From a bacterium (GTDB taxonomy: Bacteria; Auribacterota; UBA3054; JAAYZF01), in NCBI GenBank assembly GCA_012514975.1, contig JAAYZF010000272.1, positions 1 through 39,992 on the forward strand: a DNA stretch of 39,992 nucleotides, in the 5' to 3' direction. The notes beneath the pieces are model-generated. The model was given only the letters and a program-made list of their open reading frames with translations, did no database searches and was not told the origin of the DNA. The stretch's first letter is position 1, and each line of letters begins with the position of its first letter. Position numbers and translations under genes: made by a program. Positions 13,882-36,500 of this stretch are shown piece by piece.

Positions 13882-16800
13882 ACAGGATTCACACTGCATT
13901 CTCGAGGACGATGATGCGGGTGCTCCGCCTGTGCGGCGCGTTCATCCTCTGTTCAGCGGCTGCACGCGGGGCGGTGGTGCAGGATGCGACGGTCGACCTC
14001 GAGGCATCGGTCAGCGATGCGGCGCCGCACATCACGCTGAAGTGGTCCCTGCGGCTTTCCGGCACGATCACTGCGCAGACGCTGTACCGGCGTGTGCATG
14101 GCGAGACGAAGTGGCCGCAGACCAACGTGCTCTCCACCGCCGCGACGCAATTCGCTGACGCCACTGCCGTTCCCGGTGTCCGCTATGAGTACTGGCTGCA
14201 CAGGACGTACAACGCCGATCCGTACAGCGCCTACGGCCACCTGTTCGCCGGGATGAATGTTCCGCCGGTCGAGGCGCGCGGCACGGTGGTCCTGCTGGTG
14301 GACGCGACGCTTGCCGCCGCGCTGACCCCCGACATCCAGCAGCTCACCGGGGATCTCGCCGGCGACGGCTGGCAGGTCATCCGCCACGACGTGGCGCGCT
14401 CCATGGCGGTCACCAACGTGCGCGAGCTTGTCCGGCAGGACTACCTTGCCGACAGCAACGCCGTGAAGGCAGTTTACGTGCTCGGCCACGTGCCCGTGCC
14501 GTACTCGGGGGCGATTGCGCCGGACGGGCATGGCAATCACAGCGGCGCCTGGCCGGCCGATGTGTACTATGCCGAGATGAACGGCGTATGGTCGGATGCG
14601 GTCGTCAGTAACGTCACCGCAAGCGACGCGCGCAACCGCAACGTGCCCGGCGACGGCAAATTCGACCAGTCGTCGCTGCCGGGCGACATCGAGCTGCAGA
14701 TCGGCCGCGTCGACCTGTACAACATGACGCAGTATCCCAACTCGAGTGTCAGCGAGACGGATCTGATGCGGCGCTACCTGCGCCGTGCGCACGACTACCG
14801 CACGCGCAGGGGCATGTTCGCCGCCGAGATTCCCCGCCGCGCGCTCATTGACGACAATTTCGGCTTCTACGGCAGCAGCGAGGGATTTGCCAACACGGCG
14901 TTCCGCACCGCCTATGCCTGGGGCGGCCGCGGCGCGGGCGCGTACTACAACGGCGACTGGTTCGCCACGCTCGGCACGGGCGAATATCTCTTTGCCTATG
15001 GCTGCGGCGCGGGCAGCTACACCAGCGCAACCGGCGTCGGCAACTCGGGCGATTTTGGCGCCAAGCCGAGCAAGGCGGTGTTCACCTGCCTGTTCGGCAG
15101 TTACCATGGTGACTGGGACTACAAGGACAACCTCATGCGCGCCTCGCTCGCGGCGCGCGAGGATTCGTACACGCTGAGCTGCGCCTGGGCGGGCAGGCCG
15201 CAATGGTTCTTCCATCACATGGCCCTTGGCGAGCCCATCGGCCACAGCGCCCGCGTCTCGCAGAACAATTCATACATCGGACTGCTTCCTGCCGGCTCGT
15301 CCTACCGGCAGGTCCACGTCGCCCTGATGGGCGATCCCACCTTGCGGCTCTACCCGGCGCAGCCGCCCGTGAATCCCCGTGCGCGCGGTGTCGCGGGCGC
15401 GATCGAGCTTGCCTGGGACGCGCCTGATGACACGAACATCCTCGGGTACTACGTCTATCGCGCCGCGTCCATCACCGATGCGTTCGTTCGTGTGACCAAT
15501 GAGCTGCTGACGGTGAATGCCTGCATCGACGGCGCGGCGGGCGCGGGAGGGGCATGGACGTACATGGTGCGCGGCGTGAAGCTCGAGCACAGCGCGGCCG
15601 GGACGTTCACGAATCTGAGCCAGGGCGTGTTCGCCGCCGGGGTCGAAGGCTCCGGCGCGCCGTTCAGCCCCGGCGCGCTCGAGATCTTCGCGCCGTCCTC
15701 CTCGCCAATCCATCTCGCCTGGCAGGACAACTCGGACGATGAGACCGGGTTCATCATCGAGCGCGCAACGGCGCCTGACGGCGCGTTCACGGCCATCGGC
15801 GGCGCCGGGGCCGGCACGAACCGGTATGACGACGCGGGCCCGCTGACGCACGGCGCCGTCTGGCGCTACCGGGTGGCTGCCGCGGGCGTCAACGCCACCT
15901 CGCCGCCAAGCAACGTCGCAACGGTGCAGGGCAGTGCCGGCTTCATCGAGACGCCCAGGCTGATCGTCACGGCCGATGTGAGCAACGAGACGGTCGCCGT
16001 GCCCGTGCAGCGCTATGGCGGGTCGCACGGAGCTGCCGGCGCATCGTACATGACGATCAACTCGACCGCGCGGCCGGGCGCGGATTACGTGGCGGTGACG
16101 GGCGCGCTTGAGTGGGCAGACGGCGTGGCGGGGGAGGTGGACGCCGGGGTGCAGACGGTTGCCCAGCCCGCGCCGCGTCTCGCGCGCTCGTTCAGAGTGT
16201 TGATTGACGCTCCGACCGGCGGGGTGAGCCTGACGGCGTTGCGCTCGTCGATCTGCCTGCTCACCGATGCACGCGCGGCGGTGACCGGGCCATGGAATGT
16301 CGCCATCATTGATGCCATGACGCACACGGGCGCCGCCTCGATGGCCGAGGGCGTCATCGGCTCGGCGATCTACGGCGGCGGCATACCGAACGGGACGTTC
16401 GATTCCTGCCGGTTCATTTCACAGCCGGTCAACGGCGATTCGGCGATCACGTCGTTCGTCAGGATGGACCCGTACTCGCAGAACGCGCGGCTCGGGTTGA
16501 TGATCCGCAACGACCTCAATAGGAACGCTCCCTGCGTCAGCGTCTGCATGGGCAACAACCGCGTCATCATGCAGAGCCGCCCGACCACCGGGGCGGCCAC
16601 CGCCTCGAACGGCGAGGTCTGGCTCCCCACGTACGGCGTCTGGCTCCGCCTGCAGCGCCTCGGCAACACGTTCAACGCGTTCTACTCGACGAACGGCACG
16701 GCATGGGTGAAGTTTGCCTCGGCCACCGTGGCGCTGAACGCCGGAGCGCTGTGGGGCATGGCGCATAGCGGCGATCCGGGCGGCGGCGATTTCCAGCTCG

Positions 16801-18879: not shown

Positions 18880-18900
18880 CCGGGCATGGCAGCCCGGTTT
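18880..18900 (+). terminator. Possible weak terminator after the RCC1 gene pair
   Basis: A 6-bp GC stem (CCGGGC 18880-18885, GCCCGG 18892-18897, loop ATGGCA) is followed by only three T residues. It lies between the RCC1 gene stop (18797) and the next promoter, whose -35 box overlaps its end. The T-tract is too short to be confident. Confidence 0.35.
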
Positions 18901-18927
18901 ACACGGCCTCCGTTAATATGGTATACT
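18898..18927 (+). promoter_or_regulatory. Sigma-70-like promoter for the LTD-CotH array
   Basis: TTTACA (18898-18903), 18-bp spacer, TATACT (18922-18927). The predicted start, 18934-18936, falls on or beside the ATG at 18936. The first gene would therefore be leaderless, or translation would begin at the in-frame ATG at 18975. Confidence 0.7.
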
Positions 18928-18935
18928 GAAATGCT

Positions 18936-21900
18936 ATGAGGACACCATCCCACACCCCACACTCTCAGGGCGCCATGGCGCGTTTGCTGCTGCTGGCGAT
19001 CATACTTTGCGCATCGACCGCGAGCGCTTCGTCAGTACTCATCTCCGAGTTCATGGCGCAGAACAGCACAGGTCTGACGGACGAAGATGGAGATTACTCC
19101 GATTGGGTCGAGATTTACAACGCCGGCACGGCGACCGTGAACATGCTGGGCTGGCGTTTGACGGACGATGCGGGTGACGCGACGAAATGGGTGTTCCCGG
19201 AGACCAATCTCGCGCCGGGCAGGTTCATCATCGTGTTCGCCTCGGACAAGAACCGCAGGATTGCCGGCGCGGAGCTGCATGCGAACTTCAGGTTGAGTGT
19301 CGCCGGCGAATACCTGGGGCTCCTCATGCCTGATGGCGCCGTTTCCTACGAATACGCACCCGTGTTCCCGCCGCAGCAGACGGACATATCGTTCGGCATT
19401 CCCGCCGGCGTCGAGAGCAACACGCTGGTTGCCACAGGCGCCTTCTGCCGCGCATTTGTCCCGCGGGACGATTCGCTTGGCATGAGCTGGACGAGCAACG
19501 CGTTCAATGACGGCGGCTGGCTGTCAGGCACGACGGGCGTCGGCTACAAACGCGGCGGCGGGTTCGAGGGGCTCATCGGGCTTAACATCGAGGGGCCGAT
19601 GTATGCCAGCAATGCGACGTGCTACATCCGCGTGCCGTTCGTCGCGCAGAACGTTGCGCAGATGAGCACACTCACCCTGCAGACGACCTACGAGGAAGGC
19701 TATGTGCCGTACATCAACGGCCGCAAGGGACCCGGCGCGAACAATCCGGACGACCTGGCATGGGACTCCGCGGCGACATCCTACATGGGCGATCCGACAA
19801 CGCTGACGGCTGACCTGAGCAGCCTGATTGGCGCGCTCGTCGAGGGGACAAACGTCCTTGCGCTCCACGGCCTCAACCAGTCGGCCGGCAGCTCCGATTT
19901 CCTCGTTCTGCCGCGCCTTGGCGCCGAGCGCGGCCTGTTCAACGCGGCATCTGAGCCCGCGCTGCTCGCTTCGCCCACGCCCGGCGCGATGAACGGCGGG
20001 GCATTCGTGATGACCACGTCGAAAGCGCGGTTCAGCCACGAGCGCGGCTTCTACGATGCGCCCTTCGCACTCACGCTCAGCAACGATACGCCCGGCGCGA
20101 CCATCCGCTACCGCACCGACTTCTACGAGCCGACCGTGAGCGGCGGCATCCTGTACACCGGCCCCATCTGGATCAGCAAGACGACGTGCATCCGTACCAT
20201 CGCGTACACCAACGGCTACCTGCCCTCCGAGTGCATCACGCGCACCTTCATCTTCGCCGCGCAAGTCGCAACGCAGTCAGCCGACCAGACCGCGGCGGGC
20301 TTCCCGACCGCATGGGTGACGTCCAGCGGCACATCGGTCACGCCTGACTATGGCATGGACCAGCGGATATGTGGCCCGAGCGACAACTACGGCGGCCTGT
20401 ACCGCGGAAGCATCACGAACGACCTGCAGTCGATCCCCGCCATTTCGATCGTCACGACGATGTCCAACCTGTTCGACCGCTATGCCGGCATCTACTCGAA
20501 CCCGGGCGGCATCGGGGACAACTGGGAGCGCCCGTGCTCGTTCGAGTATATCAACGACCCGCGCGACCCTGATGGCATGCAGATCAACTGCGGCCTGCGC
20601 ATTCACGGCGAGGCCAACCGCAGCGTCAACAACCGCAAACATTCGTTCCGCTTCCTCTTCAAAAGCGAGTACGGCGACTCGAAGCTCAGATATCCGCTCT
20701 TCGCGGGCGATCCCGTCGAGGAATACAACACGATCGTCCTCCGCTGCATGTTTGGCGATTCGTGGGTGTCTGCGGACCGCGGTTCCTGCCTGCGCGAACA
20801 GTGGGCGCACGACACGCAGCGCGCGTTCGGCCATCCCGTCGGCTTGCACGGCCGGCTGGTGCACCTGTACGTCAACGGCCTGTACTGGGGCATCCACAAC
20901 GCGGTCGAGCGGCCTGACGACGCCTTCATGGCAGACCACGTCGCCGAGCCGCGCGAGAACTGGGACATTCTCCAGGGGCTGATCACGGCGGCCGAGGTGG
21001 CGCTCGCCGAAGGCAGCCGCGCAGCCTACGACGCCATGATGGCCCTGGTGCCGAAGTCGCCGACGACAACCATCTCCGACGTCGCCTATGCCCAGCTCGA
21101 GCAGTATCTTGACATGCCGCTGTATGCCGAGTACATGCTGCTCCAGTTCTACTCGCAGAACTATGACTGGCCGAACAAGAACTGGCGCGTGGCCTGCCAG
21201 CGCAACCCGGCCAACCCGGCCGGCCCGCCCGTGATCAAGTTCCGGTACAACTTGTGGGACCAGGAGTCCACGCTCGGTTTCTACGCACAGGACCGCACGA
21301 CCATCGGGAACAACACGTCCGAGATGCGCGGTCCGGCGCAGATATACAAGCGCATCCGTGGCCACCGCAAGTTCAAGCGGCTGTTCGGCGACCGCGCGCA
21401 CAAGCACATGTTCAACGGCGGCGCGCTCAGCACCGAGTCCAACATGGCGCGCTGGGTGGCGCTGATGGTGGGCACGTCCAACGCGATCGTCGGCGAGTCG
21501 GCCCGCTGGGGCGACTATCGCTATCCCAGCACTCCGATCACACGCGACTACTTTGCGTCGAGTCCGACGTACTGGTACAGCGAAATGTACAACAAAACGA
21601 ACGAATGGTTCCCGCTGCGCAACGCGTATTTCCTCAACTCGCTTAAGAACGCGGGGCTCTATCCCACGGTCAACGCGCCCTCGTTCAACCAGTTCGGCGG
21701 CCCGATCTCCGGCGGGTTCAATCTTGTCATGACGGCGTCCGCCGGCACCATTTACTATACGACCGACGGGAGCGACCCGGCCAACGAGGACGACACCATC
21801 GGCGCCACCGCCTCAGCCTATTCCGCGCCCGTGCCCCTGACGCAGAACGTCCGCGTCAAGGCGCGCGCACGCAGCGGCGGCCTTTGGAGCGCGCTGACCG

Positions 21901-22484
21901 AGGCCGTCTTCATCGCCGGCAGGCCCGCCCTGCGCGTCACCGAGATGATGTACCATCCGCCCGCGCCGCCCGTTGGCTCGCCCTATCTTGCCGAGGACTT
22001 CGAGTTCATCGAGCTGGCAAACATAGGCGCGGCAGTGCTCCCGGTGCGCACGTTCGCGTTCACGAAGGGCATCCAGTACGACCTCAGCAACTCGCTAGTG
22101 CAGCTTGCCCCGCAGCGCTGCATCGTGGTTGCGAAGAACCCCGCCGCGTTCGCCACGCGGTACGACACGTCGTCGTATGCCGTTGTCGGCGGCTATGCGG
22201 AGTCGCTTAACAACAGCGGTGAACCGATCGCGTTCGATGATGCGCTGTACAGCACCGTGCAGGACTTTGCCTACAGCGACACATGGTATCCCGAGACGGA
22301 CGGCGGGGGCTACTCGCTGACGATCAATGAGGCAGGCGGCGCGGTCGAGCTGTGGAACACGCAGGAGGGCTGGCGCGCGAGCTTCGCAAATCTTGGGACG
22401 CCGGGCTACATCGAGGTGCCCGAGCCGGCGTGCCTGCTGCTTCTGCTGGCTGCCTTCGCGGCCCGTCGTCGCATGGCGGCGTGA
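18936..22484 (+). CDS. Secreted LTD-CotH-LTD protein with PEP-CTERM signal (array copy 1)
   Basis: The protein has 1182 aa. A signal peptide is followed by an LTD domain (about 33-150, ISEFMAQN...DYSDWVEIYN), a beta-sandwich (about 160-340), a chitobiase-like module (361-440) and a CotH-kinase-family domain (about 550-780, from LRIHGEANRS to NLWDQES at about 771). A second chitobiase-like module (913-990, YYTTDGSDP), a second LTD (998-1140) and a PEP-CTERM tail (VPEPACLLLLLAAFAARRR) complete it. CotH of Bacillus spores is an atypical kinase of coat proteins; here the fold is carried by an envelope-targeted protein whose substrate is unknown. There is no Shine-Dalgarno before 18936. The ATG at 18975 (MARLLLLAIILCASTASA) also gives a perfect signal peptide, so the start is uncertain by 13 codons. 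Confidence 0.88.
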   Translation: MRTPSHTPHSQGAMARLLLLAIILCASTASASSVLISEFMAQNSTGLTDEDGDYSDWVEIYNAGTATVNMLGWRLTDDAGDATKWVFPETNLAPGRFIIVFASDKNRRIAGAELHANFRLSVAGEYLGLLMPDGAVSYEYAPVFPPQQTDISFGIPAGVESNTLVATGAFCRAFVPRDDSLGMSWTSNAFNDGGWLSGTTGVGYKRGGGFEGLIGLNIEGPMYASNATCYIRVPFVAQNVAQMSTLTLQTTYEEGYVPYINGRKGPGANNPDDLAWDSAATSYMGDPTTLTADLSSLIGALVEGTNVLALHGLNQSAGSSDFLVLPRLGAERGLFNAASEPALLASPTPGAMNGGAFVMTTSKARFSHERGFYDAPFALTLSNDTPGATIRYRTDFYEPTVSGGILYTGPIWISKTTCIRTIAYTNGYLPSECITRTFIFAAQVATQSADQTAAGFPTAWVTSSGTSVTPDYGMDQRICGPSDNYGGLYRGSITNDLQSIPAISIVTTMSNLFDRYAGIYSNPGGIGDNWERPCSFEYINDPRDPDGMQINCGLRIHGEANRSVNNRKHSFRFLFKSEYGDSKLRYPLFAGDPVEEYNTIVLRCMFGDSWVSADRGSCLREQWAHDTQRAFGHPVGLHGRLVHLYVNGLYWGIHNAVERPDDAFMADHVAEPRENWDILQGLITAAEVALAEGSRAAYDAMMALVPKSPTTTISDVAYAQLEQYLDMPLYAEYMLLQFYSQNYDWPNKNWRVACQRNPANPAGPPVIKFRYNLWDQESTLGFYAQDRTTIGNNTSEMRGPAQIYKRIRGHRKFKRLFGDRAHKHMFNGGALSTESNMARWVALMVGTSNAIVGESARWGDYRYPSTPITRDYFASSPTYWYSEMYNKTNEWFPLRNAYFLNSLKNAGLYPTVNAPSFNQFGGPISGGFNLVMTASAGTIYYTTDGSDPANEDDTIGATASAYSAPVPLTQNVRVKARARSGGLWSALTEAVFIAGRPALRVTEMMYHPPAPPVGSPYLAEDFEFIELANIGAAVLPVRTFAFTKGIQYDLSNSLVQLAPQRCIVVAKNPAAFATRYDTSSYAVVGGYAESLNNSGEPIAFDDALYSTVQDFAYSDTWYPETDGGGYSLTINEAGGAVELWNTQEGWRASFANLGTPGYIEVPEPACLLLLLAAFAARRRMAA

Positions 22485-22613
22485 CAACCGCCTGCTCCGT
22501 GTGTTCCGCGCTGTGGATTCAGCGGCAGGGACGCATCGTGAATGGACCCGCGCGGGAAGTGGGCTGGCCGGCCCACCTCCCGAGCGGCAGCACACTACTG
22601 ACAAAGGAGCCCT

Positions 22614-25600
22614 ATGAAGAACGCCCTCCGCTCCCCCGTGCTTGTGCGGCTCATGATCGCTTTCTGCGTCATTTCAGCGCCATTCACGCATGCCGCATCG
22701 GTCTTCATCTCCGAGTTCATGGCCCAGAACACCTTGTCTCTTCAGGACGAGGATGGCGAGTACTCGGACTGGGTGGAGATCTACAATGCCGGGACGACGA
22801 ACATCAATCTGCCGGGCTGGCGCCTGACGGATGATGCAGGCGACACGGCGAAGTGGGTGTTCCCGGAGACGAATCTTGCGCCGGGCACGTTCATCATCGT
22901 CTTCTGCTCGGACAAGAACCGCAGGATCGGCGGCGCGGAATTGCACGCGAATTTCAAGCTGAGCGCCTCGGGCGAGTACCTGGGCCTGTACCAGGCGGAC
23001 GGCGCGGTGGCGCACGAGTATGCCCCGTCGTTCCCGGCGCAGACGGCTGACATGTCGTTCGGCATCCCCGCCGGCACAGAGAGCAATGCGCTCATCGGCG
23101 CGAACGCGCCATGCCGTGCCCGTGTCCCGACGGACGACTCGCTCGGGATGGCCTGGGCGAGCAACAGCTTCAATGACGGCGGCTGGCAGGCGGGCACGAC
23201 GGGCGTCGGCTTCGAGCGCGGCACGGGCTACGAATCGATGATCGGGCTTGACGTCGGCGCGGCGATGTATGCGAGCAACGCCTCGTGCTACATCCGCGTG
23301 CCCTTCGTCGTGGCGAATGCCGCGCAGATACGGCGCCTGACCCTCCAGACGACGTTCGACGACGGCTACGTGCCGTATCTCAACGGGCGCAAGGGCCCGG
23401 GCGCGAACAATCCGGATGACCTGGTCTGGGATTCACAGGCGACCGGCGTTTCGGCCGAGCCGGAGACCGCGGTCGTCGATGTGAGCGACCTGAGCGGCGC
23501 GCTGGTCGACGGCACGAACGTGCTGGCGTTCCACGGCTTGAACCAGACCAACACGAGCTCCGACTTCCTCGTCCTCCCGCGCCTTGACGGCGTGCGCGAC
23601 CTGTTCAGCCCCGGGACGACGCCCGCGGTGCTCGCCACGCCCACGCCCGGCGCGATGAACGGCAGCGCATTCGTGATGACCACGTCGAAAGCGCGGTTCA
23701 GCCACGAGCGCGGTTTCTACGACGCCCCCTTCGTACTCACGTTGAGCAGCGATACGCCCGGCGCCACCATCCGCTACCGCACCGACTTCTACGAGCCGAC
23801 CGTGAGCGGCGGCATCCTGCACACCGGCCCGATCTGGATCACCAAGACAACGTGCGTCCGCGCCATCGCCTATACCAACGGGTATCTGCCTTCCGAGTGC
23901 ATCACGCGCACGTTCATCTTCCCCGCACAGGTGGTCACCCAGTCCGCCACGCAGACCGCGGCAGGCTTCCCGGGCACCTGGGTGCAGGCGGGCGGCTCCT
24001 CGGTCTCAGCCGATTATGGCATGGACCAGCGGATCGTCGGCCCGAGCGACATCTGCGGCGGCGTGTACCGCGCGAGCATCACGAACGACCTGCGCTCGAT
24101 CCCCTCGATCTCGATCGTCACCACGATCTCCAATCTGTTCGACCGCTATGCAGGCATCTACTCGAATCCGAACGGCATCGGCGACAACTGGGAACGCCCG
24201 TGCTCGTTCGAGTATATCAACGACCCGCGCGACCCGGACGGCATGCAGATCAACTGCGGCCTGCGCATCCACGGCGAGGCGAACCGCAGCATCAACAACC
24301 GGAAACACTCCTTCCGCTTCCTCTTCAAAAGCCAGTACGGCGACTCGAAGCTCAGATACCCGCTCTTCGCAGGCGATCCCGTCGAGGAGTACAATACGAT
24401 CGTCCTTCGTTGCATGTATGGAGATTCGTGCGTGGGTAATCGCGACGGTACCTATCTGCGCGAGCAGTGGGCGCACGACACGCAGCGCGCGTTCGGCCAT
24501 CCCGTCGGCTTGCATGGCCGGCTGGTTCACCTGTACGTCAACGGCCTGTACTGGGGCCTGTACAACGCAGTCGAGCGGCCTGATGACGCCTACATGGCGG
24601 ACCATGTCGCCGAGCCGCGCGAGAACTGGGACATCCTGCAGGGGCTGGTCACGGCGGCCGAAGTCTCGCTGGCCGAGGGCAGCCGCGCGGCGTACGACGC
24701 GATGATGGCCCTCGTGCCGAAGTCGCCGACGACGACGATCTCCGACGTCACCTATGCCCAGCTCGAGCAATATCTTGACATGCCGCTGTATGCCGAGTAC
24801 ATGCTTCTCCAGCTCTACTCGCAGAACTATGACTGGCCGAACAAGAACTGGCGCGTGGCATGCCAGCGCAACCTGGCCGACCCGGCTGGGCCGCCCGTCA
24901 TCAAGTTCCGGTACAACTTGTGGGACCAGGAGTCCACGCTCGGTTTCTATGCGCAGGACCGCACGACGGTGGGGAATGATCTGACCGGCAATAATGGCAG
25001 GATCGGCCCGGCGCAGATATACAAGCGCATCCGGGGCCACCGCAAATTCAAGCGGCTGTTCGGCGACCGTGCGCACAAGCACATGTTCAACGGCGGCGCG
25101 CTTACCGTCGAGTCCAACATGGCGCGCTGGGTCGCGCTGATGGTGGACACGAAGGGAGCTGTCGTGGGCGAGTCGGCCCGGTGGGGCGACCATACGTTTG
25201 TCAGCGCGCCCTACACGCGCGACCGCTTCACGTTCAATCCCTCGACGAACTGGTACCAAGCGATGGGGGGCAGAACGAACTCATGGTTCCCGCTGCGCAA
25301 CGCGTATTTCCTTAACTCGCTCAAGAACGCGGGGCTCTATCCCACCGTCGACGCGCCCTCGTTCAACCAGTTCGGCGGCCCGATTTCAGGAGAATTCAGT
25401 CTTGTCATGACGGCGCCGGCCGGCACCATTTACTATACGACCGACGCGAGCGACCCGGCCAAGGAGGACGACACCGTGGGCGCTACAGCCTCAGCCTATT
25501 CCGCGCCCGTGCCCCTGGCGCAGAATGTCCGCGTCAAGGCGCGCACAAAGAGCGGCAGCCTTTGGAGCGCGCTGACCGAGGCGGTGTTCATCGCCGGCCG

Positions 25601-26228
25601 GCCCAGCCTGCGCGTTACCGAACTGATGTACCATCCGCCCGCGCCGCCCGTCGGCTCGCCTTTCCTTGCCGAGGATTTCGAGTTCATCGAGCTGGCGAAC
25701 ATCGGGACGACGACGCTGCCCGTGCGCACGTTCGCGTTCACCAAAGGCATCCAGTACGATCTCAGCAACTCGCTCGTGCAGCTTGCGCCGCAGCAGTGCC
25801 TGGTGATCGCGAAGAACCCCGCCGCGTTCGTCACGCGGTACGACACGTCGTCGTATGCCGTTGTCGGCGGCTATGCGCAGTCGCTCGACAACAGCGGCGA
25901 GCAGATCGCGTTCGATGATGCGCTGTACAGCACCGTGCAGGACTTTGCCTACATTGACACATGGTATCCCGAGACGGACGGCGGCGGCTACTCGCTGACG
26001 ATCAAGAACGTCTCCGGGCCCGTCGATCTGTGGAATACGCAGGAGGGCTGGCGCGGGAGTTTCCTGCAACTCGGTACGCCCGGTTACATCGAGGTGCCCG
26101 AGCCGGCGTGCCTGCTGTTTCTGCTGGCTGCCTTCGCGGCCCGCCGTCGCATGGCGCCTGGACAGCGTGCGGCTGCAGGCATGCCGCGCATGCGGGGAGG
26201 ATCGGGCGATGACATGCGCCGTGTATGA
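22614..26228 (+). CDS. Secreted LTD-CotH-LTD protein with PEP-CTERM signal (array copy 2)
   Basis: The protein has 1204 aa and is a close paralogue of the preceding gene with the same domain order: signal peptide (about 1-28), LTD, beta-sandwich, chitobiase-like, CotH-like (WDQES near 769), chitobiase-like, LTD, PEP-CTERM. Long stretches are nearly identical at DNA level, for example around 24187-24300 against 20520-20640. The start is supported by AAAGGAG (22603-22609). It is odd in that the chain continues about 22 residues past the RRR cluster of the sorting signal (to GDDMRRV), whereas copy 1 stops at once. The gap to copy 1 is 129 bp, without a promoter I can see, so the two are probably co-transcribed. 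Confidence 0.88.
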   Translation: MKNALRSPVLVRLMIAFCVISAPFTHAASVFISEFMAQNTLSLQDEDGEYSDWVEIYNAGTTNINLPGWRLTDDAGDTAKWVFPETNLAPGTFIIVFCSDKNRRIGGAELHANFKLSASGEYLGLYQADGAVAHEYAPSFPAQTADMSFGIPAGTESNALIGANAPCRARVPTDDSLGMAWASNSFNDGGWQAGTTGVGFERGTGYESMIGLDVGAAMYASNASCYIRVPFVVANAAQIRRLTLQTTFDDGYVPYLNGRKGPGANNPDDLVWDSQATGVSAEPETAVVDVSDLSGALVDGTNVLAFHGLNQTNTSSDFLVLPRLDGVRDLFSPGTTPAVLATPTPGAMNGSAFVMTTSKARFSHERGFYDAPFVLTLSSDTPGATIRYRTDFYEPTVSGGILHTGPIWITKTTCVRAIAYTNGYLPSECITRTFIFPAQVVTQSATQTAAGFPGTWVQAGGSSVSADYGMDQRIVGPSDICGGVYRASITNDLRSIPSISIVTTISNLFDRYAGIYSNPNGIGDNWERPCSFEYINDPRDPDGMQINCGLRIHGEANRSINNRKHSFRFLFKSQYGDSKLRYPLFAGDPVEEYNTIVLRCMYGDSCVGNRDGTYLREQWAHDTQRAFGHPVGLHGRLVHLYVNGLYWGLYNAVERPDDAYMADHVAEPRENWDILQGLVTAAEVSLAEGSRAAYDAMMALVPKSPTTTISDVTYAQLEQYLDMPLYAEYMLLQLYSQNYDWPNKNWRVACQRNLADPAGPPVIKFRYNLWDQESTLGFYAQDRTTVGNDLTGNNGRIGPAQIYKRIRGHRKFKRLFGDRAHKHMFNGGALTVESNMARWVALMVDTKGAVVGESARWGDHTFVSAPYTRDRFTFNPSTNWYQAMGGRTNSWFPLRNAYFLNSLKNAGLYPTVDAPSFNQFGGPISGEFSLVMTAPAGTIYYTTDASDPAKEDDTVGATASAYSAPVPLAQNVRVKARTKSGSLWSALTEAVFIAGRPSLRVTELMYHPPAPPVGSPFLAEDFEFIELANIGTTTLPVRTFAFTKGIQYDLSNSLVQLAPQQCLVIAKNPAAFVTRYDTSSYAVVGGYAQSLDNSGEQIAFDDALYSTVQDFAYIDTWYPETDGGGYSLTIKNVSGPVDLWNTQEGWRGSFLQLGTPGYIEVPEPACLLFLLAAFAARRRMAPGQRAAAGMPRMRGGSGDDMRRV

Positions 26229-26297
26229 ACCAGGCGCTGCGGATGGGCCGGCCGGTCCGTCTCCAGTGTTGTAGTAGAACACCAATCAAGGCACTCC

Positions 26298-29200
26298 GTG
26301 AACGTTACATCTCGCTTTCCCATGCTCACGCCGGCGGTGATCGCCCTTTGCGTTGTCACAGCCCCGCTGGCCTCGGCTGCTTCAATCCTCATCTCCGAGT
26401 TCATGGCGCAGAACGGCAGCACGCTCAAGGACAGCGACGGCGAGCACTCCGACTGGGTCGAGCTCTGCAATGCAGGCACGGCCACGGTGGATCTCGCCGG
26501 CTGGCATCTGACGGATGATGCGCTCGACCTGACGAAATGGACGTTCCCGGCGACGAACATGCCGCCCGGGAGCTACCTGCTCGTGTTTGCCTCGGACAAG
26601 GATCGGGCGAAGGCGGGGGAGGAGCTGCACGCGAACTTCAAGCTGACGGCCTCGGGCGAGTACCTTGGGCTGGTGATGCCTGACGGCGCGACGGTATCCT
26701 TTGCGTACGCGCCGCGGTTCCCCGAGCAGGTCGCCGATCTGTCCTACGGTATCAGCGGCGAGGCTGCGTCCCGGGAGTTCGTGCCTGAGAGCGCCGCATG
26801 CAGGGCGCTTGTGCCGGCCAACGCGGGCCTTGGCACCACCTGGGTCGCGCGCACCGGGTTCAACGACAGCGGCTGGATCACCGGCGACACCGGCGTCGGC
26901 TATGGCGCGAACTACACGAATGTCATCGGCCTCAACATCCAGCCGGCGATGTACAACAGCAACTCGACCTGCTACATCCGCGTGCCGTTCCAGGCGAGCA
27001 ATGTTGCCGCCTTGACGGCCCTGAGCCTTGACCTGCGCTATGACGACGGGTTCGTCGCGCATCTCAACGGCGTGCGCGTCGCGGCCGCATACGCGCCGAC
27101 GACGCCCGCGTGGAACTCGATGTCGACTGGGTCGCACGACGGGTCGCTCTACGAGACGTTCAACATCACCGCGTTCAAGGGCGCGCTCGTCAACGGCGCA
27201 AACGTCCTCGCGTTCCAGGCGCTGAACACGAGGACGAACGGCCCCGACCTGCTCATCCTGCCCCGCCTCCGCGGCGTACAGAGCGGCATTGACACGAACA
27301 ACATCGGGTATTTCCACATCCCGACCCCCGGTCAGCCGAACGGCGCAACGCTTACCAACATCGGCGCAGTCGTCAAGTACGCCGGCCACGCGCCGCTCAT
27401 CCCCGCGGTGAGCGACACGATCGTGGTGACGGCACAGATCACCGCCATTGACGGCGTCGTCGCCGCCGCGGCCCTGCGCTACCGCGTCATGTTCGGCGCC
27501 GAGACCGCCGTGCCCATGTACGACGATGGCGCGCACGGCGACGGCCTGACGAACGACGGCTGCTTCGCCGCCACCATCGCCTCGGGCATCGCCTCGCCCG
27601 GCCAGATGATCCGCTACCGCATCGTCGCGACCAACAGCGCCGGCGTGGGCGCCCGCTGGCCGCTGTTCATGAATCCCACCAACTCGCCCGAGTACCTTGG
27701 CACCGTGGTGCATGACCCGGCCGTCTCGACAAACATCCCGGTCTACCACTGGTTCGTCCAGAATACCGCCGCGGCAGACACGCGCACGGGCGCGCGCTGC
27801 TCGCTCTTCTACGACGGCGAATTCTATGACAATCTGTTCTGCCGCCTCCGCGGTGGCAGCTCGTCCAGCCAGACGAAGAAGCCGCACAAGATCGAGTTCA
27901 ACGACGGGTATGACTTCAGGGCGCTTCCGGGCGAGAAACGCGTGGATGAGATCAACCTGAACGCCGCGTTTGACGACCCAACGTACATGCGCGACTTCCT
28001 TTCATGGGAGACGTTCGAGGAGGCGAAGATGCCGTACTGCTTCTCCTACCATCTGCAGCTCCGGCAGAACGGCGCGTTCCACAGCCTTGCCGTGCTGGTC
28101 GAGCAGGTTGACAAGCACTTCCTCCGCCGCCACGGTTTTGACGACCGCGGCGCGCTCTACAAGGCCGCGGCCAACAGCCTCTTCCTGCGCGAGTCGGCCA
28201 CCTCCTACGAGAAAAAGACGCCCGATGACACCAATTACTCGGACCTGCAGGGCCTGATCAGCATGCTCACGAGCTCGGATGCCGCGGCCAAGCGGCGCTT
28301 CGCCTACGACCAGCTCAATCTCCCCGAGATCATCAACTTCCTCGCGGCGAACGTGCTCCTCCAGGACTGGGACTATGGCAACAAGAACTATTATATGTAC
28401 CGCGACACCTACGGCTCCGGCGAATGGACCATCTTCGGCTGGGACAAGAACCTGACGTTCGGGTACATCTGGGACAACGCCAACGTCGTGGCCAACAACG
28501 ACACGCTCGGCGGCTCGAACGGCAGGGGCATCTCAAGCCCGTACTGGAATTCCTGGAATGCGCTCTACGGCCTGATCTTCAACATCAACACGCCGTACGT
28601 CAACATCCCTGATTTCCTCCCGCTCTATGCCCGCCGCGCCCGCACGCTCATGGACACAATCCTCCAGGCCCCCGGCACGCCTGGCGCGGAACTGAAATTC
28701 GAGAAGCGCATCGAGCAGTTGCGCCAGATGATCAAGCCGCTCGCCGATGCAGACCGGTCAAAGTGGGGCTGGCCGGCTTCGAGCGGCTTCTTCAGGCATC
28801 CCCATTACCTGATCGACGAGGGATGCACGGAGATGACCAACCTCTTTCTCGCGCCCCGCCGCGTCCACCTCTTCGTCACGCACAACGTCGGCAGCGGCAG
28901 CATCATCCCCAATTCGCAGCCCGCGAGCGCCAACCTCCTGTTCGGTACGGTCGAGCCCGTGCCCGCATCGGGCAACCAGGATGAGGAATATATCGAGCTG
29001 CGCAACACGAACACGTACGCAGCGGACATCTCCGGCTGGCGGCTGTCGAACGCCGTGGAGCACACGTTCCAGCCGGGCGTGGTCGTGCCCGCGGGCGGCT
29101 CGCTCTACGTCTCGCCGCGGGTGAGTGCGTTCCGCGCGCGCAGCACCAGCCCGCGCAGCAACGAGTACCGCTTCGTCCAGGGCAACTACAAGGGGCAGTT

Positions 29201-29864
29201 GTCCTCATGGGGCGAGACCATCTACCTCCTTGACGACAGCGGCGCGGTGAAGAACTCGACCATGTACCCGCCGTCGCTCAGCGCGCCGCAGCGCTTCCTG
29301 CGCGTCTCGGAAATCATGTACCATCCCGCCGACCCGCCTGCGGGCAGCCCGTATTTGAACGACGACTTCGAGTTTGTCGAGCTCTGCAATATTGGCGCGG
29401 CGCCATTGAACGTCAGCGGCACGTATTTCAGCGCGGGCATCCAGTTTTCGTTCGGCCCGGCCACCTTCACCATTCCCGCTGGCGGGTGCGTCGTCATTGT
29501 GAACAACCTCGAAGCCTTTGAGACGCGGTACGACACCAACGGAATGCGCATCGCCGGCACATTCGCCGGCAAGCTGGACAACGCGGGAGAGCACATCGAA
29601 ACCGAAGACCCGCGCAACGAGACGATCCAGGCCTTCACCTTCGATCCCGCATGGTATCCAGTGACGGACGGCGGCGGCAGGTCGCTTGAGATCGTCAGCC
29701 CGGACGGCGCGCTCGCAAGCTGGGACACGGCGGAAGGCTGGTGTGCCAGCGGCCAGCCGTGCGGCACGCCCGGCTATCTCGTGCCCGAGCCGGCATGCAC
29801 CGCGCTTCTGCTGCTCTGTCTTGCCGGCTGTTGCGCGCGCGGGAAGAGCTGCAGAGCGTTGTGA
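26298..29864 (+). CDS. Secreted LTD-CotH-LTD PEP-CTERM protein, divergent member (array copy 3)
   Basis: The protein has 1188 aa. It begins at GTG 26298 with a weak AAGG site 6 nt upstream; the ATG at 26322 is an alternative that keeps the signal peptide. The N-terminal LTD (ISEFMAQN) and final LTD resemble its neighbours, but the middle differs. There is no chitobiase-like module; an Ig-like module (about 340-460, with YDDGAHGDGLTNDG) precedes a different CotH subtype (about 510-725) that ends in FGWDKNLTFG, the form closest to classical CotH. Another LTD follows (about 870-960), then a third (about 995-1130), and the tail is VPEPACTALLLLCLAGCCARG. The second acidic residue of the WDxD-type motif is Asn. 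It sits between three mutually similar copies, so the array is not a simple serial duplication. Confidence 0.86.
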   Translation: MNVTSRFPMLTPAVIALCVVTAPLASAASILISEFMAQNGSTLKDSDGEHSDWVELCNAGTATVDLAGWHLTDDALDLTKWTFPATNMPPGSYLLVFASDKDRAKAGEELHANFKLTASGEYLGLVMPDGATVSFAYAPRFPEQVADLSYGISGEAASREFVPESAACRALVPANAGLGTTWVARTGFNDSGWITGDTGVGYGANYTNVIGLNIQPAMYNSNSTCYIRVPFQASNVAALTALSLDLRYDDGFVAHLNGVRVAAAYAPTTPAWNSMSTGSHDGSLYETFNITAFKGALVNGANVLAFQALNTRTNGPDLLILPRLRGVQSGIDTNNIGYFHIPTPGQPNGATLTNIGAVVKYAGHAPLIPAVSDTIVVTAQITAIDGVVAAAALRYRVMFGAETAVPMYDDGAHGDGLTNDGCFAATIASGIASPGQMIRYRIVATNSAGVGARWPLFMNPTNSPEYLGTVVHDPAVSTNIPVYHWFVQNTAAADTRTGARCSLFYDGEFYDNLFCRLRGGSSSSQTKKPHKIEFNDGYDFRALPGEKRVDEINLNAAFDDPTYMRDFLSWETFEEAKMPYCFSYHLQLRQNGAFHSLAVLVEQVDKHFLRRHGFDDRGALYKAAANSLFLRESATSYEKKTPDDTNYSDLQGLISMLTSSDAAAKRRFAYDQLNLPEIINFLAANVLLQDWDYGNKNYYMYRDTYGSGEWTIFGWDKNLTFGYIWDNANVVANNDTLGGSNGRGISSPYWNSWNALYGLIFNINTPYVNIPDFLPLYARRARTLMDTILQAPGTPGAELKFEKRIEQLRQMIKPLADADRSKWGWPASSGFFRHPHYLIDEGCTEMTNLFLAPRRVHLFVTHNVGSGSIIPNSQPASANLLFGTVEPVPASGNQDEEYIELRNTNTYAADISGWRLSNAVEHTFQPGVVVPAGGSLYVSPRVSAFRARSTSPRSNEYRFVQGNYKGQLSSWGETIYLLDDSGAVKNSTMYPPSLSAPQRFLRVSEIMYHPADPPAGSPYLNDDFEFVELCNIGAAPLNVSGTYFSAGIQFSFGPATFTIPAGGCVVIVNNLEAFETRYDTNGMRIAGTFAGKLDNAGEHIETEDPRNETIQAFTFDPAWYPVTDGGGRSLEIVSPDGALASWDTAEGWCASGQPCGTPGYLVPEPACTALLLLCLAGCCARGKSCRAL

Positions 29865-29895
29865 AGTGACCGGCCGGACCGCGCGGCAATGAACT

Positions 29896-32800
29896 ATGAG
29901 GACATTGGCTGACATCATCGCATGGCCCGCCGGCCTTGCGCATGCATTCGTGCTGTCGACCATGCTCTGCGCATCCGGCTCGCACGCCGCAACGGTCTTC
30001 ATCTCCGAGTTCATGGCGCAGAACGATTCCGTCCTCGCGGACCAGGACGGCGAGTACTCCGATTGGATTGAGCTGTACAATGCCGGCACGGCCACCGTCA
30101 ACATGCTCGGCTGGCGCCTGAGCGACAATGCGACGGCCCCGGAGAAGTGGGTTTTCCCGCAGACGAACCTCGCGCCAGGCAGATTCGTCATTGTCTTTGC
30201 CTCGGGCAAGGACCGCAGGGCGGGCGGCGCGGAACTGCACGCGAATTTCAAGCTGAGCGCTTCGGGAGAATACCTCGGGCTTTCCATGCCCGATGGGACC
30301 GTTGCGCACGAGTATGCGCCTGTCTTCCCTGCACAGACGGCGGACATATCGTACGGCATCCCCTCGGGTTTCGGGAGCAATTCGCTCATAGGCATACGCG
30401 CGTTCTGCCGCGCGTTTGTCCCGCGCGACGATTCGCTTGGCAAGAGCTGGACCAGCAACGCGTTCAACGACAGCGGCTGGCTGCCAGGCGCGACGGGCGT
30501 CGGGTACGAGCGCGGCAGCGGGTACCAGTCGGGGATCGGGCTTGATGTCGGCGGGCCGATGTACGCGAGCAACACGACGTGCTACATCCGCGTGCCGTTT
30601 GTAGCGGATGACGCCGCGCTGGTGAAACAGCTTTCATTGCAGACGGTGTTTGACGACGGCTATGTGCCGTACATAAACGGGCGCAAAGGGCCCGGCGCGA
30701 ACAATCCCGAGGACCTGTCCTGGGACGCCGCGGCGACCGGCAGTTCAGGCGAGCCGGAAATGACGGTCACTGATCTGGGCGACCTGAGCGGCGCGCTGGT
30801 CGAGGGCACGAACGTGCTTGCCCTCCACGGGTTGAATCATTCGGTCACCGGGTCTCATTTCCTGGTTCTGCCCCGGCTGGATTGTGTGCGGAATCTGTTT
30901 GGCCCGGGGACGCCGCCTGTGCAGCTTGCGGCGCCCACGCCCGGCTCGATTAACGGCGGCGCATTCGTGATGACCACGTCGAACGTGCGCTTCAGCCATC
31001 CGCGCGGCTTCTACGATGCGCCCTTCGCGCTCACGCTGAGCAGCGACACGCCCGGCGCGACCATCCGCTACCGCACCGACTTTTTCGAGCCGACCGTCAG
31101 CGGCGGCACCTTTTACACCGGCCCCGTATGGATCAGCAAGACCACCTGCATCCGCACCATCGCGTACACCAACGGGTACCATCCCTCCGAGTGCATCACG
31201 CGCACGTTCATCTTCACCGCGCAGGTGGCTACCCAGTCGGCGGACCAGACCGCGGCGGGCTTCCCGGCACGCTGGGTGAGGTCGGACGGCGCGGTGGTCA
31301 CCTCTGACTACGCCATGGACCAGCGGGTCGTTGGTCCGGGCGACAACTATGGCGGCGTGTACCGCGCGAGCATCACGAACGACTTGCGCTCGATTCCCGC
31401 CATCTCGATCGTCACCACGATGTCCAACCTGTTCGACCGGTATGCGGGCATCTACTCGAACCCGGGCAGCATTGGCGACAACTGGGAGCGCCCCTGCTCG
31501 TTCGAGTACATCAACGATTCGCGCGACCCGGACGGGATGCAGATCAACTGCGGCCTGCGCATCCACGGCGAGCTTAACCGCATCATCGGCAACCGCAAGC
31601 ATTCGTTCCGCTTCCTCTTCAAAAGCCAGTACGGCGACGCGAAACTGAACTACCCGCTCTTCGCAGGCGACCCCGTCGGGGAGTACAACACGATCGTCCT
31701 CCGCTGCATGTACGGCGATTCGTGGATGAACCGGTTCGGCGCGACATACTTGAACGAACAGTGGGCGCACGATACGCAGCGCGCGCTTGGCCATCCCGTC
31801 GCCATGCATGGCCGGCACGTGCATCTCTACGTCAACGGCCTGTACTGGGGCCTCTACGACGCGGTCGAGCGGCCGGATGATGCGTTCATGAATGACCACG
31901 TCGCCGGGCCGCGCGAGAACTGGGACATTCTGCAGGGGCTTATCACGGCCGCCGAGGTGTCGCTGGCGGAAGGCAGCCGCGCGGCCTATGACGCCATGAT
32001 GGCCCTGGTGCCCAAGTCGCCCACCACCACTGTGTCCGATGTCACGTATGCGCAGCTCGAGCAGTATCTCGACATGCCGTTCTATGCTGACTACATGCTG
32101 CTGCAGTTCTACTCGCAGAACTACGACTGGCCGCGGAAGAACTGGCGCGTCGCCTGTCAGCGCACCCCGGCCAGCCCGGCCGGCCCGCCCGCGGTCAGAT
32201 TCCGCTATACCGCGTGGGACCATGAATCGGCATTGCGCTCGTACGACCGGGATCGCACGACGATCGGGAACGACCTTGCGGATATGCGCGGCCCGGCGCA
32301 GATATACAAGCGCATCCGCGGCCACCGCAAATTCAAGCGGCTGTTCGGCGACCGTGCGCACAAGCACATGTTCAACGGCGGCGTGCTCTGCACCGAGTCC
32401 AACCTCGCGCGCTGGGTGAGGCTGATGGCCGACGTGCATGGCGCCATCGTGGCCGAGTCTGCCCGGTGGGGCGACATCATGTTCCCTGACAGCCCGTTCA
32501 CGCGCGATAGGTTCCCGTTCAACGAGGCGACGAACTGGTTCACGGAGATCAACACGCATACGAACGAGTGGTTCCCGCGGCGCAACGGCGTACTGCTCAC
32601 CTCGCTGCGCAACGCGGGCCTCTATCCGCTGATCGACGCGCCCGTCTTCAGCCAGTTTGGCGGCTCCATCACCAACGGCGTCATGCTCACCATCTCCGCG
32701 GCCGCGGGCGACATCTACTACACGACCGATGGAAGCGACCCGGCCAATGAAGATGATTCCGTTGGCGCAGGCGCCTCGGTGTACGGCTCGCCCGTGCCCC

Positions 32801-33528
32801 TGACGCGGAATGTGCGCGTGAAAGCCCGCGCCAGGAGCGGAGGCACCTGGAGCGCGCTGACTGAGGCCGTGTTCATCGCCGGCCGTCCGGATTTGCGCGT
32901 GACGGAAGTGATGTACCATCCGCCCGCGCCGCCCGCCGGTTCGCCCTATCTTGCGGACGACTTCGAGTTCATCGAGCTTGCGAACGTCGGTACGGCGGCG
33001 TTGCCGGTGCGGACGTTTGCGCTCACGAAGGGCATCCAGTTTTCGCTGGGCAATGCGGCCCTGAGTCTCGCACCCGAGCAATGCATCGTGCTGGCACGGA
33101 ATCCCGCCGCGTTTGCCACGCGGTACAACACGTCCTCCTATGCCGTGGTTGGCGGCTATGCGCAGTCGCTCGACAATGGCGGGGAGGAACTGGCGTTCAG
33201 CGACGCGATCTACGGCACCGTGCAGGACTTTGCCTACAGCGATACATGGTTCCCCGAGACGGACGGCGGCGGCTTCTCGCTGACGATCAAGGATGCCGCG
33301 GGCGACGTCGGGATGTGGAACACGCAGGAAGGCTGGCGCGCAAGCTTCGCCGATCTTGGCACGCCGGGCTGCATCGAAGTGCCGGAGCCGGGCTGCCTGG
33401 CGCTCCTGTTGTGTGCGGCATGGTGTGCCGGGAGGCGGCGCCAGAATCCGCCGGCCTCAAGGTTTCGTTGTTGCCGCCCGTCATGGCGCGCGCCATTCGC
33501 CTTGGAGAGGAACGCCCATGAACGCTGA
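29896..33528 (+). CDS. Secreted LTD-CotH-LTD protein with PEP-CTERM signal (array copy 4)
   Basis: The protein has 1210 aa and is a close paralogue of copies 1 and 2 with the same domain order; the CotH motif reads AWDHES near residue 773. The start at 29896 has no clear ribosome site and lies 31 bp after the previous stop, in the same context (CTATGAGGACA) as the start of copy 1. After the PEP-CTERM signal (VPEPGCLALLLCAAWCAGRRR) the frame runs on for about 29 Arg/Pro/Cys-rich residues and overlaps the start of the quinoprotein gene by 11 bp. That tail looks like read-through into non-coding sequence after loss of an earlier stop. Confidence 0.87.
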   Translation: MRTLADIIAWPAGLAHAFVLSTMLCASGSHAATVFISEFMAQNDSVLADQDGEYSDWIELYNAGTATVNMLGWRLSDNATAPEKWVFPQTNLAPGRFVIVFASGKDRRAGGAELHANFKLSASGEYLGLSMPDGTVAHEYAPVFPAQTADISYGIPSGFGSNSLIGIRAFCRAFVPRDDSLGKSWTSNAFNDSGWLPGATGVGYERGSGYQSGIGLDVGGPMYASNTTCYIRVPFVADDAALVKQLSLQTVFDDGYVPYINGRKGPGANNPEDLSWDAAATGSSGEPEMTVTDLGDLSGALVEGTNVLALHGLNHSVTGSHFLVLPRLDCVRNLFGPGTPPVQLAAPTPGSINGGAFVMTTSNVRFSHPRGFYDAPFALTLSSDTPGATIRYRTDFFEPTVSGGTFYTGPVWISKTTCIRTIAYTNGYHPSECITRTFIFTAQVATQSADQTAAGFPARWVRSDGAVVTSDYAMDQRVVGPGDNYGGVYRASITNDLRSIPAISIVTTMSNLFDRYAGIYSNPGSIGDNWERPCSFEYINDSRDPDGMQINCGLRIHGELNRIIGNRKHSFRFLFKSQYGDAKLNYPLFAGDPVGEYNTIVLRCMYGDSWMNRFGATYLNEQWAHDTQRALGHPVAMHGRHVHLYVNGLYWGLYDAVERPDDAFMNDHVAGPRENWDILQGLITAAEVSLAEGSRAAYDAMMALVPKSPTTTVSDVTYAQLEQYLDMPFYADYMLLQFYSQNYDWPRKNWRVACQRTPASPAGPPAVRFRYTAWDHESALRSYDRDRTTIGNDLADMRGPAQIYKRIRGHRKFKRLFGDRAHKHMFNGGVLCTESNLARWVRLMADVHGAIVAESARWGDIMFPDSPFTRDRFPFNEATNWFTEINTHTNEWFPRRNGVLLTSLRNAGLYPLIDAPVFSQFGGSITNGVMLTISAAAGDIYYTTDGSDPANEDDSVGAGASVYGSPVPLTRNVRVKARARSGGTWSALTEAVFIAGRPDLRVTEVMYHPPAPPAGSPYLADDFEFIELANVGTAALPVRTFALTKGIQFSLGNAALSLAPEQCIVLARNPAAFATRYNTSSYAVVGGYAQSLDNGGEELAFSDAIYGTVQDFAYSDTWFPETDGGGFSLTIKDAAGDVGMWNTQEGWRASFADLGTPGCIEVPEPGCLALLLCAAWCAGRRRQNPPASRFRCCRPSWRAPFALERNAHER

Positions 33529-36500
33529 TCATTGTTGTCGCCGCTGGATATGCGTGGCATGCTGGTTCGCGTCACTGCTCCTTGTGACGTCCCATTGCGC
33601 CGCCGTCTCCATCGCCTCGCCCTATGATGTGCCGGAGCAGCCGGACGCGTGGCCCAGGGGCCTTGCCGTCGTTCTCGGCATCGAGAGCAACGCGTTCAGA
33701 GCCGCCGCACTGGCGCTGGCTCACGAACGCGACGTGCTGGTGTTCTGCCAGACGCCGTCCGCCGCGGCGGCAGATGAGATGCGCAACGCCGCCGATGCCG
33801 CGGGCATGCTTGGCACGCGCGTGTTCGTGGCGCACGGTCCGCTCGCGCGGCTTGGCCTTGCGGACAACCTGGCCGGCGAGATCGTCGCACCGCCGTGCGT
33901 CACGCAGGATGTCGCGGAGGCCGAGCTGCTGCGTGTGCTCCATCCTGAAGGCACGGCGGTCATCGGCGACCGCACGATCGTAAAGCCCTTCCCGGAAGGC
34001 ATCGATGCATGGAGCCATCCGCACCACGGGCCGGACAACAACCCCTTGTCACGCGACCGGCAGGCGCGTGTGCCGTACATGACGCAGTTCCTCGGCTTCC
34101 CGCTGTTCAGCCCGATGCCCGAGGTGACTGTCGCGGCCGGCGGGCGGATTTTCCGTGCGCACGGCCATATCGCGATGCGGCGCAACCAGAACGTCGTGCT
34201 CAACACGCTCTTCTGCGTCAACGGGTACAACGGGCAGATCATCTGGCGGCGCCCGCTGCACAAGGGCTTCATGATCCATCGCAACACGATCATCGCCACG
34301 CCCGACGCGCTTTTCCTCGGCGATGACGTGTCGTGCAAGCTGATCGATGCGCGTACAGGCGCACCCACGCGCGAGATCGCCATCCCGCCCGGCATCTCCG
34401 ACGGCCCTGTGTGGAAATGGATGGCCCTCGAAGGCGGCGTGCTCTACGCCCTCGCCGGCGCCGCGGAAGTGCAGGTCGATACGCTCGCTTCAACGAATCT
34501 CGGCATCGGCCAGTGGCCATGGGGCATGTGGAAAGGACATGATTACAAGGACCCTGCGCGCAACTTCGGCTTCGGCCGCACCTTCGCGGCGTTCGACACC
34601 ACTACGCTGAAACTGCTCTGGCATCGCCGCGAGGATGACTACATCGACAGCCGCGGCGTCTGCATGCGCAACGGGCGCATCTACTACTATGCGCCACGGC
34701 AGTATATCGCGTGTCTCGACGTGCGAACGCGGACGCAGCTCTGGAAGCGTGCGGACGAGGAGATTCTCGGCGCCATCGGCCCCGACCGCCGCGCGCAGAA
34801 TCCGCGCGAGGGATTCGCCACGCAGACCTACGTCAAGTGCGATGACGACTGCCTGTTCTTCGCCGGGCCGCAGCGCAGCAACATCGTCGCCCTCGCCACA
34901 CGCGACGGCTCGCTCCTCTGGCAGCAGCGCGACGGCAACAGGCTCCTCGTCCTCCGCGATGACGGCATCTACTACGCCGGCGCGGGCCGCGGCGCGAAGA
35001 TGGATTACCAGGGCAACGAGCTCGAAGTGCTTCCCGGCCGCCGCTCGTGCACCAGGGCGACAGGGAGCATCGACTCGCTGTTCTACCGCGCGCCCGAGGG
35101 CACCGCGCATATCGTCATCGACGGCGGCACGATCAGGACTCAGCATATCGCGCCCATGCGCCCGTCGTGCCAGGACGGCGTAATCATCGCGGGCGGCATG
35201 CTCTACTGGTCGCCCTGGATGTGCGCATGCTGGCTTTCGCTGTACGGCAGCGTCGGCGCGGGCCCGGCAGGCGCATTTGACTTTCATCCAGGGCCTGCGT
35301 CGCCTGAGATGCTGGCGGACAGCGCCGCGTTGTCATCCGTCAAGGCATTCCCGGATGATGATAGCGGTTCGTATCTCCCGGACGCAGCACGCGCGGGCGA
35401 GGCCGGCGTTGCCTCCACGCCGTTCACCGGCCTGTGCGCGCGTGCGTGGTCGTTCCAGGCGCTTCATTCCGGCAGGCCGACGCCGCCGCTCGCGGCAGTC
35501 GGGCTCGTGTTCATAGGCGACGAGCATGGCGCGGTGCACGCGATTGACGCCGCGTCAGGCACGTCCGTGTGGAAGCGATTCACCGGCGGCGCGATCTTCG
35601 CCGCCCCGGTCCTTTCCGCCGGCCGCCTGTTCGTCGGCTCCGCGGATGGCTGCGTCTATGCATTCGAGGCGGCGAGCGGGCGGCCGCTGTGGCGCTTCCG
35701 TGTCGGCCCGGCAGGGCGGATGATCCCGGTGTACGGCACGCTGATGTCCACATGGCCCGTCTCGGGCGGCGTGGTTGCGAAGGACGGCGTCGTGTACGCC
35801 GCTGCCGGCATCGCCCACTACGACGGCACGTACGTCTGCGCGCTCGATGCGGCGACCGGCGCGGTGAAATGGTACAACGATTCGAGCGGCGTCATGTCCG
35901 AGGAGTTCAGGAACGGTGTCAGCCTCCAGGGCCCGTTGCGCATCGAAGACGGCTCGCTCTGCTTCGAAGGCGGCAGCGTCTGCCCCACCGCGCGCTTCGA
36001 CCTCGCCACCGGCGAATTCATCAACACCCTCCCGCCCAGGTTCGGTTCGCTGCATCCAACTGCTTATGCGGCCTATTACCCGTGGTACGACCAGTACGTC
36101 TCGCTCGACCATACGTTTGACGACGGCACGACGCTCGATTACGAGGCCCTGTATGACGGCAGCTATCACGCGCCACTGTCACTGCTCAAGCCCATCACGC
36201 TTGCGCCGGGCCAGACGATGGGCTCGCGCCTGGTGTGGTGGACACAGGCATCCAAGCGCGAGATCATCTGGCAGGACAAGAGGAAGGCGCGGTACAACGG
36301 CCTCGTCGTCGCGAACGGTGCGGTGATCGGTGCAGGGCAGGCCGGGCCGCTCGACAACGGCGAGCCGTTCATTGCAGCGTGCCGCATCGCCGACGGCCAG
36401 ACGCTCTGGGAACAGCCGTTGCCCGCCCCGGCGGTCAAAGGCGGCCTCGCTGCCGGAGACGACGGCAGGTTGTACATGTCGCTTTCCAACGGCCAGTTGC

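Follow-up and report, generated by a model that had tools for sequence, protein, structure and literature searches.

Four consecutive genes for large, predicted exported proteins, each combining a CotH-type domain with lamin-tail domains (LTD), raise the question of whether such an array makes up a phosphorylation or assembly system at the cell surface. The genes occupy positions 18936–33528 of a contig (JAAYZF010000272.1, assembly GCA_012514975.1) from a bacterium of the phylum Auribacterota; the whole stretch of 39,992 nucleotides is referred to here as the window. The initial annotation had proposed a system of this kind. The proteins are best read as surface kinases, because they show a CotH profile, a CotH fold, intact catalytic residues, an export signal and an exosortase-type tail, but the array itself does not define a system. 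With a probability of about 0.5, the proteins are exosortase-sorted surface CotH kinases that act on envelope proteins or matrix and are tied in trans to a module of VTC (polyphosphate polymerase), DUF4956 and adaptor genes. The association with VTC, DUF4956 and an HlyD-like protein is the part worth following, beyond the array itself.

The CotH core, LTD modules and sorting tails

The four co-directional open reading frames lie head to tail on the plus strand, as had been described, with gaps of 129, 69 and 31 bp. They encode protein 1 (1182 residues, 18936..22484, although translation may actually begin at Met14, position 18975), protein 2 (1204 residues, 22614..26228), protein 3 (1188 residues, 26298..29864) and protein 4 (1210 residues, 29896..33528). 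The signal peptides proposed for all four were borne out, the N-termini being judged by eye. Profile PF08757 detects a CotH domain in each (E values of 2.7e-18, 1.8e-19, 2.4e-38 and 3.9e-18 for proteins 1–4). With scores of 66.5–132.9 bits against a curated cut-off of 23.8 bits, all four stand far above the threshold, and the absence of a CotH match, named beforehand as a refuting outcome, did not arise. A fifth LTD-CotH protein of the window (1317 residues, 2374..6327, minus strand), which is ∼32% identical to proteins 1, 2 and 4 and carries a PEP-CTERM-like tail, scores 36.4 bits.

The kinase domains are encoded at 20595..21521 (protein 1), 24261..25079 (protein 2), 27843..28817 (protein 3) and 31555..32358 (protein 4), all on the plus strand. 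The Lys/Glu/Asp/Asn/Asp catalytic set is intact in 5/5 CotH proteins of the window, including the fifth; the residues are K568, E658, D744, N749 and D775 in protein 1, while K527, D692, N697 and D716 are intact in protein 3. Among 58 diverse sequences (45 + 13), the Lys, assigned to the ATP site by conservation, is present in 45/45 and 13/13, the first Asp in 42/45 and 13/13, and the second Asp in 43/45 and 13/13, the set being kept in about 90% or more of them. Altered catalytic residues were seen at L060:12030-13862, L078:6277-8085 and L136:8131-9792; the members concerned lie within two tandem pairs of Anaerolineae, which may be pairs of a kinase and a pseudokinase unless the alignment is at fault, and in one copy in the window's own genome.

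AlphaFold models of proteins 1 and 3 (predicted confidence, pLDDT, of 92 and 80) both have Bacillus cereus CotH with Mg2+/AMP (5jd9/5jda) as by far their best fold match in the PDB (E values of 2e-12 and 4e-20, TM 0.75–0.77 on the target). Subfamily profiles also match 5jd9, at 1e-26 for the protein 3 type and 1e-7 for the protein 1 type; protein 1 found no PDB match by plain phmmer, whereas the profile and fold searches did match. In the profile alignments the Asp and Asn of the window proteins align with the CotH motifs NFDGFVHN and PWDYD, which carry, by their spacing, the residues equivalent to D228 and D251 of B. subtilis CotH, where the D228Q and D251A variants are inactive (PMC7821199). 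A predicted fold lacking a nucleotide pocket was thus not encountered, as the models match AMP-bound CotH, and it is from this match that a pocket is predicted. A nucleotide-binding, phosphotransferring domain would be the natural reading of the CotH core, and the CotH-like fold together with the intact catalytic set makes it plausible that the array proteins are active kinases.

The LTD profile PF00932 is over its cut-off of 34.3 bits in all four proteins (65–130 bits, E values of 7e-18 to 8e-38). Individually significant stretches in the Pfam scan number one in protein 1, two each in proteins 2 and 4, and three in protein 3. The C-terminal LTD proposed for protein 1 is not significant on its own and was accepted because the protein closely resembles proteins 2 and 4.

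The PEP-CTERM anchors of the initial annotation stood in modified form. No curated PEP-CTERM model is matched; instead, each protein ends in a PEP motif, a hydrophobic stretch and a basic end that are recognized by a tail profile of the lineage, built from 32 tails that belong to other proteins encoded in this and related genomes. On the plus strand, these tails are encoded at 22416..22481 (protein 1, VPEPACLLLLLAAFAARRR), 26094..26225 (protein 2), 29781..29861 (protein 3) and 33379..33525 (protein 4). The lineage profile ranks proteins 4, 2, 1 and 3 first of 161 long frames in the window (E values of 4e-7 to 1.4e-5). One RCC1 protein comes next, then the fifth CotH protein and the remaining RCC1 protein, with nothing else below E 0.6; among 14000 shuffled tails, 11 fit the tail pattern. 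One exosortase was identified in the genome (G000:C420:4200-5009, E 3.9e-34, in a frame of 701–715 residues), alongside 44 PEP-CTERM matches. Given this ranking, the one exosortase and the 44 matches, the array tails are taken as probable PEP-CTERM signals of the lineage type. Proteins 2 and 4 have 25–28 additional residues past the basic end, possibly because stop codons shifted after duplication.

Paralogues and distribution of the family

The array is not a set of four equivalents. It consists of three close paralogues (identities of 80.6% for proteins 1/2, 74.5% for 1/4 and 72.6% for 2/4) and one member of a separate CotH subfamily, protein 3, with about 35% identity to any of the others. 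The copies are under purifying selection: a synonymous divergence (dS) of 0.43–0.68, with a non-synonymous to synonymous ratio (dN/dS) of ∼0.28, indicates that selection has maintained all of them for some time. There are 17 CotH genes in the genome. A second LTD-CotH tandem pair of this genome (L131:578-9198) stands behind a gene for a large PEP-tailed protein that, by eye, resembles a secreted glycoside hydrolase.

The LTD-CotH architecture occurs at 80 or more loci among the species genomes (134 candidates confirmed) and in many phyla, with hosts among the Verrucomicrobiota, Planctomycetota, Kiritimatiellia, Chloroflexota, Bacteroidota and others; many of these loci match protein 1 over nearly its full length. 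The proteins are therefore of a known and common kind, and the array is one more instance of it. Homologues are largely scattered. Since tandem copies are frequent and neighbors are not conserved, the array is not enough to define a system; a link at that level does emerge outside the window, with VTC and DUF4956.

These facts bear on the explanation that the tandem layout reflects local duplication without functional coordination, the copies being ordinary accessory surface proteins and the array meaningless as a unit. The identities of 73–81% among proteins 1, 2 and 4, which diverge patchily, would fit such an origin, as does the recurrence of tandem copies in Chloroflexota, Bacteroidota, Verrucomicrobiota and Planctomycetota without common array neighbors. 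It accounts less well for copies long kept under selection and for a distinct subfamily member embedded in the run. This explanation has to be taken seriously, though its chances fall short of even, and it is compatible with the surface kinase reading for each single protein.

Eight genomes of a related genus (L138–L145, e.g. L140:2313-18624) have a tandem LTD-CotH PEP-CTERM pair between two DUF945-like genes, which lie upstream, and mreC-mreD-PBP2, which follows immediately, an arrangement seen wherever the contig extends far enough. As a clue to a role in cell shape this link was rejected as lineage-specific, with no CotH gene beside mreC in the window genome or in other families of the order. 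Exosortase was likewise rejected as the cause of the CotH distribution, as many CotH-negative genomes have exosortases too.

Association with VTC and DUF4956, and the array's neighbors

When the neighbors of the 80 LTD-CotH loci were clustered, DUF4956 (7 loci) and VTC (6 loci) were the leading families, and the adjacency of CotH, VTC and DUF4956 is found in several phyla. Within the window's phylum (about 41 genomes sampled), VTC is present in 19/22 CotH-positive and 0/19 CotH-negative genomes (Fisher test, 8e-9, ignoring shared ancestry). Two families (f6 and f11) each hold a double-positive genome beside double-negative ones, which partly offsets the caveat about ancestry. VTC is also present in 45 of the 50 LTD-CotH genomes reached through loci, one of which (G083) apparently repeats another (G001).

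In the window's order, VTC, DUF4956 and an HlyD-like adaptor form an operon-like row, joined in three families (f2–f4) by an LTD/PEP-CTERM protein of ∼485 residues, in genome G029 by an outer-membrane efflux protein and at L165 by a TolC-type outer-membrane protein. In the window genome itself the adaptor-like, VTC and DUF4956 genes lie together on another contig (C409, L164), without an adjoining LTD protein. The order-wide row of LTD/PEP-CTERM, HlyD-like, VTC and DUF4956 genes, observed at L167, L168, L172, L173 and L175–L182, looks like a trans-envelope exporter related to polyphosphate. The arrangement of CotH, polyphosphate polymerase and DUF4956 was reported not to be found outside Pel loci (PMC12345266). 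This restriction appears not to be generally valid, because L052 (9944–18107), L106, L117 and L119 carry CotH-VTC-DUF4956, with no Pel genes among the neighbors scanned.

The same association can be read differently, namely that the CotH domains modify exopolysaccharide or glycoconjugates, by phosphorylation or otherwise, rather than proteins, and that the array decorates a surface glycan to which its Fn3_assoc/chitobiase-type modules bind. Proteins 1, 2 and 4 each have two stretches of Fn3_assoc and CHB_HEX_C_1 modules in the Pfam scan (protein 3 has none), and such modules are typical of carbohydrate-active enzymes. Glycosyltransferases or epimerases lie near some VTC/CotH loci (L166, L170, L174). 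Pel loci of Gram-positive bacteria include CotH, polyphosphate polymerase and DUF4956 as accessory genes (PMC7112168), and in Streptococcus intermedius mutating either the secreted CotH-like gene or SIR_1592, a transmembrane protein gene of the same cluster, reduces Pel and aggregation (PMC12345266). A glycan target is nevertheless unlikely: the sole characterized enzyme activity of a CotH protein is Ser/Thr phosphorylation of proteins (PMC7821199), no glycan synthesis genes adjoin the array, and L106, L117 and L119 are without polysaccharide synthesis genes among the neighbors scanned.

The array sits within a run of seven genes on the plus strand (8899–36556). It is preceded by two RCC1/Big_9 paralogues with PEP-like tails, the first (8899..13881) having a 4-bp overlap with the second (13878..18797), which is 66% identical to it and ends 138 bp before protein 1. 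It is followed by a PQQ/BamB-type beta-propeller protein (33518..36556), the start of which overlaps the end of protein 4. A promoter-like site, TTTACA-18-TATACT with an extended −10 (18898..18927, plus strand), was found by consensus match just upstream of protein 1, and consensus matching gave no terminator-like site on that strand between the four genes; the layout is consistent with one transcript that would start at ∼18.9 kb. Both RCC1 paralogues, which also have cadherin-like parts, possess an N-terminal domain of ∼450 residues that resembles a C25-type peptidase by eye only, and a gingipain-like N-terminus suspected by eye in the first gave no PDB or Pfam match. The idea that the neighbors (both RCC1, the PQQ, DUF2330 and FAD proteins) form a conserved unit with the array was also dropped: across ∼100 loci none has a full-length homologue beside CotH, the sole similarity being Big_9-type domains.

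Proposed mechanism and known systems

According to the surface kinase reading, the signal peptide would export each LTD-CotH protein and the PEP-CTERM-like tail would sort it to the cell surface. There, the kinase domain would be displayed between LTD and beta-sandwich modules, which may bind neighboring polymers, and would phosphorylate envelope targets, either Ser/Thr-bearing proteins or polymers of the matrix. Local duplication would have given rise to proteins 1, 2 and 4, and protein 3 probably represents a distinct and older subfamily. The kinases most likely cooperate with the VTC-DUF4956-HlyD-like module on the other contig, which would make or move phosphate or polyphosphate across the envelope. 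A stronger version joins everything into one trans-envelope phosphorylation system, in which VTC makes polyphosphate at the inner membrane, its outward passage is handled by DUF4956 and the adaptor, and surface LTD-CotH proteins phosphorylate the extracellular matrix using polyphosphate, or ATP regenerated from it; the array would then be a set of locally expanded terminal enzymes. This version is decidedly doubtful.

Several points weigh against the surface kinase reading. Sequence identity across the CotH fold match is only 12–19%, and the curated PEP-CTERM models (PF07589/TIGR02595) give no match over cut-off in proteins 1–4. The kinase activity and substrates of the array proteins are themselves inferred, and we know of no external source of ATP. 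Neither VTC nor DUF4956 stands beside the array within the window, and the co-occurrence test is uncorrected for shared ancestry and draws its CotH-negative background from 19 genomes of one phylum. That the CotH domains are catalytically idle, the proteins being structural or adhesive scaffolds that retain the fold, is quite improbable, for despite their large multi-domain form, the expansion of paralogues, the altered residues of some members (L060, L078, L136) and the anchoring role proposed elsewhere for LTD domains (PMC6461901), a structural role would not need the catalytic residues to be so widely intact.

Bacterial extracellular protein phosphorylation is barely known beyond spore coats. 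Exported LTD-CotH proteins occur in many phyla and are annotated by domain only; the near-obligate co-occurrence with VTC, together with the order-level adjacency of VTC, DUF4956 and HlyD-like genes, suggests a concrete partner for the family.

Among known systems, the Fam20C-type secretory-pathway kinases are eukaryotic and have a lumenal supply of ATP. They too are atypical kinases, and their targets are secreted proteins that they phosphorylate beyond the cytosol (PMC8721277), but they gave no sequence or fold match among these searches. Bacillus CotH (B. cereus 5jd9/5jda; B. subtilis CotH, with substrates CotB and CotG) shares the fold, the ATP-site Lys, the two catalytic or metal-binding Asp and the Asn between them, in the same order and spacing. 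It is a coat protein of a spore-former, in contrast to the large, predicted exported LTD/beta-sandwich proteins of the array with their exosortase-type tail. Clostridium thermocellum offers a closer parallel in architecture, with a cellulosomal LTD-LTD-Fn3-CotH protein (Cthe_0239), CseP/CotH and the RCC1 protein Cthe_0258 (PMC6083626). Cthe_0239 likewise combines LTD, Fn3-type and CotH domains in a secreted protein, and the cellulosome has RCC1 proteins in its surface complex, just as RCC1 genes precede the array here. Cthe_0239 is attached to the cellulosome, whereas the array proteins have a PEP-CTERM-like tail in place of a dockerin, a module not found in the Pfam scan of the window proteins. 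The accessory genes found in Pel loci of Gram-positive bacteria (PMC7112168, PMC12345266) are alike in pairing a secreted CotH+FN3 protein with VTC and DUF4956. Here, in contrast, there are no Pel genes and CotH is mostly unlinked from VTC-DUF4956, which stands instead with an HlyD-like adaptor; other families of the order have an LTD/PEP-CTERM protein there as well.

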